Below, piece after piece: positions 13,273 to 49,743 of a DNA stretch of 54,352 bases. Numbering within the stretch: the first letter of the stretch is position 1; each line of letters opens with the position of its first letter. Source of the stretch: Deltaproteobacteria bacterium. GTDB lineage: Bacteria; Desulfobacterota; Dissulfuribacteria; Dissulfuribacterales; QOAL01. The DNA lies in the NCBI GenBank assembly GCA_027028245.1, contig JALVJO010000169.1, forward strand, positions 1 to 54,352, written 5' to 3'. Below the pieces are notes generated by a model. It made no database searches and was not told the origin of the DNA. It saw only the letters and a program-made list of their open reading frames with translations. Made by a program: the position numbers and the translations under genes.

Positions 13273-15822
13273 TCATCTGTAATGGATTATACCCCTTCTC
13301 AGGAGCAGCTTTTCCACTTCAACTGCTGCAAATACCATTAGTCCTGCAAGAATACACATGCCCATTTCTTGGAAAGAAAGGGCAGCTGTATGCATTATGG
13401 CCGAGATGCCAGGCAGGTAGATTACAGCAGCCTGTACGGCAGCAGTGATTGCAACTGTCAGGGTAAGGGGCAGATTGGAATAGAGTCCCTGTTTGAAAAG
13501 AGACATCTTTTCCGATCTTATGGCCATGACATGGGCCAGCTGGCAGAAGGCAAGGGCCGTAAATATCATGGTCTGCCAGTGGCCCCCGGTCTCAAGGCCT
13601 ATTTTCTGGATGCCGAGGCAAAGTGCAGTCACGAAGGGTGCCATCCATAAAAGATGCTGCCAGATGCCCCTGGCAAAGAGGCTTTCCTCAGGCGGCCGCG
13701 GGGGCCTTTTCATGATGTCATCTTCCGCAGGTTCTGCCACCAGGGCCAGGCACGGGGCCCCGTCGGAGATGAGATTGATCCAGAGTATCTGGATGGGCAT
13801 AAGTGGCATTGGAAGCCCCAGGAAAGGGGCCAGAAGGATTATCATTATCTCCGCCGTGTTGCTGGCAAGAAGATACTTGATAAATTTTCTTATGTTGTCG
13901 TAGATCCTGCGCCCGATTTCCACAGAGCGGACAATGGTTGCAAAATTATCATCCAGGAGTACAAGATCTGCTGCCTGCTTGGCAACGTCTGTTCCATTGA
14001 TGCCCATGGCAACCCCGATGTCTGCCTGCTTGAGGGCGGGTGCATCATTTACCCCGTCGCCGGTCATGGCTACTGACTGGCCAGCCTGCTGGAGTGCGGA
14101 AACAAGGAGCAGTTTCTGCTCAGGGCTGATCCTTGCATAAACCCTGGCCCTGGTGACAATATCTTTTAGTTCCTGCCTTTCCATGGCCGAAAGCATACTG
14201 CCGGTAACGGCCTGTCCCTCCTGGCCGCCTCCCAGGATTCCTATCCTTCTGGCTATGTTTACGGCTGTGCCGGGATGGTCTCCTGTGATCATGACCGGCG
14301 TAATACCTGCAGACTTACAGGTGGCAATTGCCCGGGGTACTTCTGGTCTTGGCGGATCCATCAGTCCTGCAAGTCCCAGGAAGGTCATATCCCTTTCTAT
14401 CTCTTGGAGGGATTCAGGCAACCGGTGGACCTGCCTGAAGGAAAAGGCCAGTACCCGGAGTCCTTTTTCCGTAAGGAGCCTGTTTATCTCCTCTGTTTTT
14501 TCCGTGTTGATATCACGGCATATTTCAGACACTGATTCCGTGCTGCCCTTGGTAAGTGCCAGGAAAGAGCCGGATGGCATGCGGTGAACAGTGGTCATCC
14601 GCATCCTTTGAGAATTGAAGGGGATCTCTGCCACTTTTGGATAGGCCTTTTCCAGGTCTTCCAAATCAAGGCCGAGTTCCTGAACCTTTGCCGTCAGCGC
14701 GGTTTCCGTCGGGTCTCCCAGGGGCCTTCCCTTTGAATCCCTTGAGACATGGTTGCAGAGGGCCAGGGCCAGTATGAATTCTTCCGGCAGCTTGCGGGCT
14801 TTTATTTTATTCCCGTTAGTATCTACCAGGATTTCCACCCTCATGCGGTTCTGGGTGATTGTCCCCGTCTTGTCCGAGCAGATATACGTGACAGAGCCGA
14901 GGGTTTCCACTGCGGGAAGATTCCTGGCAAGGGCGTTTTTACGGGCAAGCTGCCTTGCTCCAAGGGCCAGGGAGATGGTAACAACTGCAGGAAGTGCCTC
15001 TGGAACTGCCGCAACGGCCAGACTTACCGATGTAAGAAAAAGCTCCAGGATGTCCCGGCTGTTAACCAGGCCGGCAAGAAAGACCACAATGCTTATGGCC
15101 AGAACCCAAACGGTGAGCCTCCTGCCAAGATGATCAAGACGTCTCTGCAGGGGTGTCTTCTCGTCTCCGGCCTGTTCCAGGAGGTTTGCAATACCTGCAA
15201 AACGGGTACGGGTGCCGGTTGCCTTGACTATACCCACACCCCTTCCGTTAACTGCCACCGTACCCATAAAGAGCAGATTTTCTTCATTATGGGATTCCAG
15301 GATTGAAGCAGGCACCTTGTGTGCCGGGATGGATTCTCCCGTAAGGACAGACTCGTCTATGCGAACATCACTTCCCTCAAGGAGCAGTATGTCTGCCGGA
15401 ACGATGTCTCCGGCCTCGATTACCACCACGTCCCCTGGTACCAGGGCAGCTGCCGGAATCCTTCTGGAACTGCCGTCTCGTATGACAAGGGCAGTGGGGG
15501 CGGCCATTTTCTGAAGGGCCTCCATGGCCCTTTCTGCCCTGTATTCCTGGATGAAACCTATTATTCCGTTAATTAACAGGATCAGGATGATGGCCAGCCC
15601 GTCATGAATCTGGCCAAGCGCCATGGACACAGCAGCACCTGCCATGAGAAGAAGGATCAGGGGGCTTTTAAACTGCGACAAAAGGGAGGACAGGGGAGAT
15701 CTTTTTCCAGGTTCCGGCAGTTCATTTGGCCCGAATTGCCCGAGAAGCTTCAGGGCTTCTTTTTCGGAAAGACCCTGTTTCAGGTAAATATCGGTTGCAT
15801 AAGCTGCCTTTTCAGCATTCAT
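13273..15822 (-). CDS. Cation-translocating P-type ATPase (P2A/Ca2+-type)
   Basis: CSDKTGTITQNRM, TGESIPAHK, MITGDHPGTA, MTGDGVNDAPALKQADIG. Confidence 0.93.
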   Translation of the reverse strand: MNAEKAAYATDIYLKQGLSEKEALKLLGQFGPNELPEPGKRSPLSSLLSQFKSPLILLLMAGAAVSMALGQIHDGLAIILILLINGIIGFIQEYRAERAMEALQKMAAPTALVIRDGSSRRIPAAALVPGDVVVIEAGDIVPADILLLEGSDVRIDESVLTGESIPAHKVPASILESHNEENLLFMGTVAVNGRGVGIVKATGTRTRFAGIANLLEQAGDEKTPLQRRLDHLGRRLTVWVLAISIVVFLAGLVNSRDILELFLTSVSLAVAAVPEALPAVVTISLALGARQLARKNALARNLPAVETLGSVTYICSDKTGTITQNRMRVEILVDTNGNKIKARKLPEEFILALALCNHVSRDSKGRPLGDPTETALTAKVQELGLDLEDLEKAYPKVAEIPFNSQRMRMTTVHRMPSGSFLALTKGSTESVSEICRDINTEKTEEINRLLTEKGLRVLAFSFRQVHRLPESLQEIERDMTFLGLAGLMDPPRPEVPRAIATCKSAGITPVMITGDHPGTAVNIARRIGILGGGQEGQAVTGSMLSAMERQELKDIVTRARVYARISPEQKLLLVSALQQAGQSVAMTGDGVNDAPALKQADIGVAMGINGTDVAKQAADLVLLDDNFATIVRSVEIGRRIYDNIRKFIKYLLASNTAEIMIILLAPFLGLPMPLMPIQILWINLISDGAPCLALVAEPAEDDIMKRPPRPPEESLFARGIWQHLLWMAPFVTALCLGIQKIGLETGGHWQTMIFTALAFCQLAHVMAIRSEKMSLFKQGLYSNLPLTLTVAITAAVQAAVIYLPGISAIMHTAALSFQEMGMCILAGLMVFAAVEVEKLLLRRGIIHYR

Positions 15823-16151: not shown

Positions 16152-16405
16152 TCTCCCTTGCTGCCGGGAGCATTCCCAGTTTGTTCCTGGACGAAAAAAG
16201 CAAGGATCGGTGCATTTCTTTCAAGGTTCACCAAGCCGCTGTGCAGATTTCAAATTCTTCTCGAATACAGACATTGTCAATCTCAGCGACTTGGCTACGG
16301 TTGAAGTTGGCTTCCTTGTGGTGAAACCTTTCAAGAAACACTCCTTCCTTGCCAATGGTGCAAATGAGGAACAAACGGGGAATGCTCCCTTGCGGGCAAG
16401 GGAGG
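16152..16405 (+). repeat. Dispersed long-inverted-repeat element, copy A (MITE-like)
   Basis: Core 16166..16389 begins GGGAGCATTCCCAGTTTGTTCC and ends GGAACAAACGGGGAATGCTCCC. Similar outer segments (TCTCCCTTG / CAAGGGAGG) extend it. Core is closely similar to copies B and C. Confidence 0.85.
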
Positions 16406-16549: not shown

Positions 16550-17728
16550 ATGAAGCCGGAAAATCATACGGCCAGGATAATAGCAATAATGGAAAGATTT
16601 GCAGAAGAGACGGGGCTTTATCCCCCTGCCTCTTCTCCGAAGCGGTATCTTTGGACCGATTCCTTTGCAGTATGCAACTTCCTTGAGCTCTTCAGGCGGA
16701 CCGGAGACAGGAAATACAGGGATCTTGCCCTTCGTCTTGTTGACCAGGTGCATTTTGTCCTGGGCAGGTTCAGCAGGGAAGATCCGAGAAACGGCTGGAT
16801 CAGCGGCCTTGAAGATGAAGAGGCCAGGGAGCATCCCACCATGGGCGGCCTGAGGATAGGAAAGCCGCTTCTTGAGCGCGGGCCGGATGAGCCCTTTGAT
16901 GAACGTATCGAGTGGGACAGGGATGGCCAGTATTACCATTATCTCACCAAATGGATGCACGCACTGAACAGGGTCAGCAGGGTGACCGGGGACATCAGCT
17001 ACAACCGCTGGGCAATCGACCTGGCAAAGACAGCCCACGCCGCTTTCACCTATACCTCTCCCATTGACGGCAGAAAACGCATGTACTGGAAGATGAGTGT
17101 GGATCTTTCCAGGCCCCAGGTGTCGTCCATGGGGCAGCACGATCCGCTGGATGGATATGTTACTTACTGCGAGCTGGAGATGTGCGGCCCCATGGAACTT
17201 ATGAAGGCCGGTCAGTATCCGGACCTTTCGGCAGAAATACGGGATATGGCCGGCATCTGTCAGGGCATGGATCTTGTTACTGATGATCCCCTGGGAATCG
17301 GCGGGCTGCTTTTTGATTCCTGCCGCCTGGCACAGATGATCCAAAGCGGCTATTTGAAGGACGTGGCACTTCTTGTGAGCCTTCTCAGTGCTGCTGCAGA
17401 AGGACTTAGATATTTTTCCGGGACCAATCTTTTGAATATGCCGGCGGAACTGAGGCTGGCCTTCAGGGAAGAGGGACTTTCCATCGGGCTCCACGGCGCA
17501 GAAAAGGTGGATGCCCTGGCGCGCGAGGAAGGGTCCCCGCTTGTTCAGGATCCGAATTTTTCCTCAGTCCTCGGCAGATTAAGGGAATATTTGGGCCTGG
17601 CAGAAGGCATAGAAAGGTTCTGGCTCAGGCAGGAGAACCAGACGGTGCAGACCTGGCTTGAGCATGAGGAAATAAATGCAGTCATGCTGGCCACAAGTCT
17701 CGGGCCGGAAGGTTTCCTGTTGATTTAA
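16550..17728 (+). CDS. Conserved hypothetical, possible six-hairpin glycosidase-like (alpha/alpha-toroid) protein
   Basis: Full-length 392-aa ORF with helical segments such as LALRLVDQVHFVLGR and YYHYLTKWMHALNRVSRVTGD resembling glycosidase-like superfamilies. Confidence 0.55.
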   Translation: MKPENHTARIIAIMERFAEETGLYPPASSPKRYLWTDSFAVCNFLELFRRTGDRKYRDLALRLVDQVHFVLGRFSREDPRNGWISGLEDEEAREHPTMGGLRIGKPLLERGPDEPFDERIEWDRDGQYYHYLTKWMHALNRVSRVTGDISYNRWAIDLAKTAHAAFTYTSPIDGRKRMYWKMSVDLSRPQVSSMGQHDPLDGYVTYCELEMCGPMELMKAGQYPDLSAEIRDMAGICQGMDLVTDDPLGIGGLLFDSCRLAQMIQSGYLKDVALLVSLLSAAAEGLRYFSGTNLLNMPAELRLAFREEGLSIGLHGAEKVDALAREEGSPLVQDPNFSSVLGRLREYLGLAEGIERFWLRQENQTVQTWLEHEEINAVMLATSLGPEGFLLI

Positions 17729-42488: not shown

Positions 42489-42709
42489 GACAATCCCGGT
42501 TTGTCCCAGCCATTTATGCCACTGGCAAGGAAGGTGTGTTTTAAAGGTTTCACCACAAGGAAGCCAACTTCAGCCGCACTCAAGCCGCTGAGATTGGCGA
42601 TGTCTGTACTCGCGAAGAATTTGAAATCTGCAAAGCGGCCTGGTGAACATTGAAAGAAATGCGCCGATCCCTGCCCTTCCGTGTCCAGAGGGAAACAGGG
42701 AATGCTCCC
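42489..42709 (-). repeat. Dispersed long-inverted-repeat element, copy B (MITE-like)
   Basis: Reverse complement begins GGGAGCATTCCCTGTTT and shares the core TGCAGATTTCAAATTCTT...GAAGTTGGCTTCCTTGTGGTGAAACCTTT with copies A and C; distal end degenerate. Confidence 0.82.
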
Positions 42710-49407: not shown

Positions 49408-49475
49408 CCCTGCTGCCCGTACCCGGGGCAATGCGTCAGGTATTGTTCTGCATGCCCTTGTTCTATGTTTGCGGG

Positions 49476-49709
49476 GGGAGCATTCCCCGTTTGTCCCCGG
49501 ACGAATAATGGCGAGGAATGGCAAGGAAGGTGCATTTCTTTCAAGGTTCACCAAGCCGCTATGCAGATTTCAAATTCTTTTGGAATGCAGACATGGCCAA
49601 TCTCATCGGCTTGACTGCGGCTGAAGTGGGCTTCCTTGTGGTGAAACCTTTCAAGAAACACCCTTTCCTTGCCAGTAGCACAAATGGGAGACAAACTGGG
49701 AATGCTCCC
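49476..49709 (+). repeat. Dispersed long-inverted-repeat element, copy C (MITE-like)
   Basis: GGGAGCATTCCCCGTTTGTCCCC ... GAGACAAACTGGGAATGCTCCC; core closely similar to copies A and B; flanked by GTTTGCGGG / GTTTGCCGGG. Confidence 0.87.
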
Positions 49710-49743
49710 GTTTGCCGGGTTATTTCGACTGGTAAGGTGAAAA

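Follow-up and report, generated by a model that had tools for sequence, protein, structure and literature searches.

A family of about 70 MITEs in an uncultured deltaproteobacterial genome, probably mobilised in trans by an ISKra4-like transposase

Bacterial MITEs, for example Correia/NEMIS and ERIC, are short non-coding elements that are bounded by terminal inverted repeats (TIRs), flanked by target-site duplications (TSDs), present in high copy number and located between genes. The repeat family analyzed here is like them in all these features and unlike them in its TIR and core sequences, in its 8-9 bp TSD and in its ISKra4-like partner. The family is new, no earlier description having been found in the literature searched, and its kind is well known. 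ISKra4 is a group of prokaryotic Mutator-like transposases (p-MULT 4) whose elements have inverted and direct repeats; some of these elements carry extra genes beside the transposase, and several members, not all, insert upstream of sigma-A promoters (Guerillot et al. 2014, PMC3942029). Comparison with this group revealed three points of likeness: (i) the TIR of the family is found on elements encoding ISKra4-like transposases, (ii) the direct repeats are of 8-9 bp, and (iii) extra genes occur in the group. In contrast, the elements in the window encode nothing, the partner transposases score under the curated cut-off for ISKra4, and for the MITE, unlike several ISKra4 members, no preference for insertion upstream of promoters was seen.

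The window, that is, the whole analyzed stretch of 54,352 nucleotides, is contig C169 of an assembly of 2.86 Mb (205 contigs, 96% complete). The original prediction described three homologous repeats with common termini in this window; all three are present, with blastn matches to the family across the genome (E-values down to 1e-119), whereas their limits stood only in part. Copy C was delimited exactly (49476-49709, plus strand, 234 bp). It has two intact TIRs, at 49476-49497 on the plus strand (GGGAGCATTCCCCGTTTGTCCC) and at 49688-49709 on the minus strand (reverse complement GGGAGCATTCCCAGTTTGTCTC), and it is flanked by a 9-bp TSD that reads GTTTGCGGG on the left (49467-49475) and GTTTGCCGG on the right (49710-49718), identical at eight of nine positions. 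Copy A occupies 16166-16389 on the plus strand (224 bp, both TIRs); the limits of 16152..16405 given earlier were too wide, the outer 14-16 bp on each side being a CCCTTGC/GCAAGGG flank outside the element. Its flanking octamers TTGCTGCC/TTGCGGGC match at only six of eight positions. Copy B lies on the minus strand at 42492-42709, with an approximate start that replaces the earlier one. Its outer TIR is intact at 42698-42709, whereas the second TIR is eroded past GGGA (about 42494) and reads ...GACAAACCGGGATTGTCAAGAGG, the common terminus being gone at about 42492. Termini common to all copies, as first described, are thus found in A and C but not in B, where the right TIR is not intact. The gene contexts agree with the ORF map: copy A is located between divergent genes (ORFs at 13273-15822 on the minus strand and 16550-17728 on the plus strand), and copies B and C between convergent ones. 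For annotators, the odd intergenic ORFs at the repeat sites are element sequence.

From three copies in one contig, many had been expected genome-wide, and both blastn and TIR pattern counts give about 70 in the 2.86-Mb MAG. The BLASTN search of copy C (49476..49709) against the full genome, which had been proposed as a check, produced dozens of strong matches. The genome contains the 12-mer GGGAGCATTCCC 69 times and its reversed control not once, so the repeats are not due to chance; the 20-bp TIR pattern, at three or fewer mismatches, has 138 matches versus one for its reversed control, and these ends correspond to about 70 elements. We extracted 54 copies with both TIRs, 53 of them 210-237 bp long and the remaining one extended to 494 bp by a nested insertion. 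Further inspected copies were truncated, split by contig ends, or additional full copies, and the unpaired TIRs examined all belong to truncated or contig-split MITEs; in one copy split across contigs C45 and C155, the 9-bp repeat GTTTGGTAC is still visible. The family consensus is 225 bp long with TIRs of 22 bp, and the copies diverge from it by 3-11%, which indicates a largely old family. The copies have no coding capacity, and almost all of them are intergenic. Rejoined ORFs of at least 150 codons were found at 10 of 42 insertion sites, compared with 82 of 210 random nearby positions; coding sequence is thus avoided. Gene-disrupting insertions, considered for an empty-site test, were rejected: among sites with good TSDs, the three longest ORFs obtained by rejoining are not gene-like.

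The TSDs were counted at 53 copies having both flanks, one further copy being excluded. At 39 of these sites, the element is flanked by direct repeats that are 8 or 9 bp long and differ at no more than one position (27 of 8 bp, 15 of them perfect, and 12 of 9 bp, 4 of them perfect), whereas randomly re-paired flanks gave a mean of 0.06 sites and a maximum of 2 in 2000 shuffles. For the same copies, with both flanks, no comparable signal was observed at 4-6 or 10-12 bp. The copies are therefore true transposition products of a staggered-cut mechanism. There is a weak and roughly symmetric target bias, with T favored at flank positions 2-3 and A at 6-7 (mild NTT...AAN). A simple consensus scan of 105 flanks revealed no positional enrichment of promoter-like sites, and no relative yielded an empty site, the congeners being only ~71% identical in genes; the TSDs take its place as evidence of insertion.

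The elements have 22-bp TIRs, 8-9 bp TSDs, no coding capacity and a mostly intergenic location, and in other genomes their TIR bounds or abuts ISKra4-like transposases. The MITE-like character that had been proposed is upheld by these TIRs and TSDs, by the roughly 70 dispersed, short and non-coding copies, and by the TIR-sharing transposase elements elsewhere. Very probably, the repeats are a MITE family of about 70 copies with a 225-bp consensus that was moved in trans by the ISKra4-like transposase of an element lost or unassembled here, and that may have needed its core in cis. An ISKra4-like DDE transposase (prokaryotic Mutator superfamily, p-MULT 4) would bind the MITE TIRs in trans and move the element, its staggered cuts leaving the 8-9 bp duplications. 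The source of this transposase would be an element that is now lost from, or unassembled in, the window genome, and two blocks of the core would be needed in cis for propagation, as suggested by the shared variants that avoid them.

The claim that the repeats are non-autonomous, with no transposase present, was borne out on the genome scale: no match to an ISKra4-type transposase or to DruA was found in the 96% complete genome, the PF14236 search having been made without a positive control. An autonomous partner with the same TIR in the same genome, usual for a MITE but not obligatory, was not found, and we infer that it has been lost or was not assembled. A transposase gene bounded by the same TIRs, as had been sought, was thus found in other genomes and not in the window's own.

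The TIR is common to ISKra4-like elements at five loci (L144, L169, L168, L139 and L190). In genome G010, from the window's own family, an element of 2462 bp between related TIRs (L169:747-3208) contains an intact 489-aa ISKra4-like ORF (3e-37) and a 297-aa DruA-like ORF (2.9e-38); its TIRs are identical to the MITE consensus at 18/20 and 16/20 positions. A Magnetococcales element has 2282 bp between two TIRs (L144:4145-6426) and encodes a broken DruA (PF14236, 2e-13) and a broken ISKra4-like transposase (NF033572, 1.5e-15 and 6e-12). These two best-preserved IS copies are themselves without a clear TSD. The transposase reading frame of a truncated copy in SeepSRB2 (G041, JAJSZR01, contig C139) ends inside the TIR, and the same transposase C-terminus (RCAxxNGT[F/Y]E) is located just inside the TIR in Geobacter (L139) and in another of the Magnetococcales (L190). 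The best NCBIfam match of the partner transposases is ISKra4, at 128.7 and 190 bits, under the 205-bit cut-off. Beyond the ~20 bp of the TIR, the MITE has no sequence in common with the identified IS elements, so none of them can have given rise to it by simple internal deletion. With each species represented by one genome, a scan found exact TIRs in MAGs of Desulfobacterota, Geobacter, Magnetococcales, Gallionella and Marinilabiliaceae, although some of the single exact matches, for instance that in Gallionella, may be due to chance. A viral contig (L274) also has a match, which falls within a phage structural-protein-like ORF and was dismissed as chance. With its TIRs and TSDs mapped and a likely transposase family assigned, this MITE family from uncultured sulfur-cycling bacteria is well documented, and a single TIR now connects MAGs of Desulfobacterota, Magnetococcales and Geobacter.

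The TIR also bounds other short elements whose 8-bp TSDs are perfect: one of 76 bp in a Desulfobulbaceae MAG, two of 109 bp and 267 bp in SeepSRB2, and one of 277 bp in Thermodesulfatator sp. MAG 87 (QOAL01). The latter genome contains dozens of relatives that have both TIR and core in common with the window MITE, the core being ~70-77% identical, whereas the elements of SeepSRB2 (264-267 bp and 109 bp) and the 76-bp element of Desulfobulbaceae share the 20-bp TIR and have other interiors, the cores of the 264-267 bp and 76-bp ones being unrelated to that of the window MITE. The same ends with different interiors indicate that one end sequence drives several miniature elements. At one locus of MAG 87 (L056; contig C53, 5402-7154), a core copy is at the center of a longer near-perfect inverted repeat that extends into the flanks and may be an assembly fold-back or belong to another repeat family.

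Two blocks of the core, consensus positions 59-75 and 136-167, are conserved. In copy C, they are located on the plus strand at 49543-49559 (AAGGTTCACCAAGCCGC) and 49620-49651 (consensus GCTGAAGTTGGCTTCCTTGTGGTGAAACCTTT). Variation per site is 0.9% and 1.5% in the blocks versus 5-12% elsewhere, TIRs included, that is, 4-8 times lower, and the blocks are largely kept in Thermodesulfatator MAG 87 and in the single decayed copy of genome G002. Variants found in at least two copies number 5 in 49 block sites and 144 in 176 sites elsewhere, whereas variants private to one copy (23 in blocks versus 116 elsewhere; 0.47 versus 0.58-0.73 per site) are not significantly reduced (p = 0.11). The contrast between the shared and private classes is significant (Fisher p of 2e-4) in a crude, tree-free test; homoplasy could inflate the shared class. 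Because shared variants avoid the blocks and private ones are not clearly depleted there, a cis need for transposition fits better than a host function; the blocks appear to have been under constraint in propagating source copies and, once inserted, to have decayed in a roughly neutral way. It can be suggested only tentatively that the invariant blocks make up a cis-acting site within the element, such as an enhancer or a site for a host factor or the transposase, that was selected in source copies; the element would then be more than TIRs around filler, and its core may be needed to out-compete other TIR pairs. The blocks are a small testable case of selection inside a non-autonomous element. 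A coding core was rejected: a reverse-strand frame looks protein-like in two genomes, but its substitutions have no third-position excess and it is broken in G002, and core substitutions follow no clear codon pattern, with frames interrupted between species.

The same conservation might be ascribed to host-level selection, if the repeats were hairpins of the REP/BIME or attenuator type, dispersed as regulatory or structured-RNA elements and not spread by a transposase; we consider this explanation unlikely. Folding is far stronger than in shuffled sequences on both strands (z of -6.3 and -7.0), but any palindrome folds stably in both orientations regardless of function. The inner stem is near-invariant across three congeneric genomes, with one position changed from G-C to A-U, a single pair switch, and the repeat has no match in Rfam; a structured RNA was rejected on these two grounds. 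The lower variability of the blocks and the avoidance of genes by the copies would suit such elements, whereas the private post-insertion mutations, not significantly reduced in the blocks, the precise 8-9 bp TSDs, the occurrence of the same TIR on short elements with unrelated cores, and its presence on transposase-bearing elements argue against them. An absence of copies elsewhere together with a lack of TIR-sharing transposons or empty sites, or else a match to a different known element class, had been named as evidence against the original prediction; copies are abundant, such transposons exist, and Rfam contains no match.

It is quite improbable that the MITE owes its mobility to IS256, ISLre2 or another DDE family that leaves 8-9 bp TSDs, and that its ends are convergent. 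TSDs of this length are common to several IS families of the Mutator superfamily, and a partner transposase also has a weak match to ISLre2; however, the TIR is identical at 16-20 of 20 bp to ISKra4-like-encoding elements in at least four lineages, and no transposase other than an ISKra4-like one was found adjoining it. Least credible, to the point of being nearly negligible, is a REP-type origin with movement by a RAYT/Y1 (IS200/IS605-like) transposase: each TIR tip is a small palindrome (GGGA-GCAT-TCCC) and the window genome has two Y1_Tnp matches, but Y1 enzymes leave no TSD, so the 8-9 bp duplications contradict such movement, and TIR-like sequence (at three or fewer mismatches) is absent from both Y1_Tnp loci.

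With movement by an ISKra4-like transposase as the preferred reading, the extra gene in the partner elements deserves a note. In three lineages, a DruA/DUF4338 gene lies upstream of the ISKra4-like transposase, within these same TIRs or next to them (L169:2245-3135 in G010, L144:5567-6334 and L168:3-482), which suggests that the DruA-like protein is a transposon accessory gene product in these elements. DruA-like proteins are named for the Druantia defence system. In the literature searched, no paper was found that gives the TIR string or that pairs DruA with ISKra4. In Thiodictyon, a DruA-like domain overlaps an ISAs1-annotated transposase; a few plasmid DruA-like proteins, one of them within an ISAs1-annotated transposase, were set aside as uninformative for the TIR of the MITE.

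The nested insertion in one MITE copy (contig C95, L040:1561-1815) is an unrelated repeat of ~255 bp with ends CCCGGAT.../...ATCCGGG and an apparent 5-bp duplication, TTGAA. This repeat recurs in the window genome and in G004 (L013:255-517, L007:1943-2079 and L112), and its G004 relative sits between GGGAAGCATTCCC-type ends.
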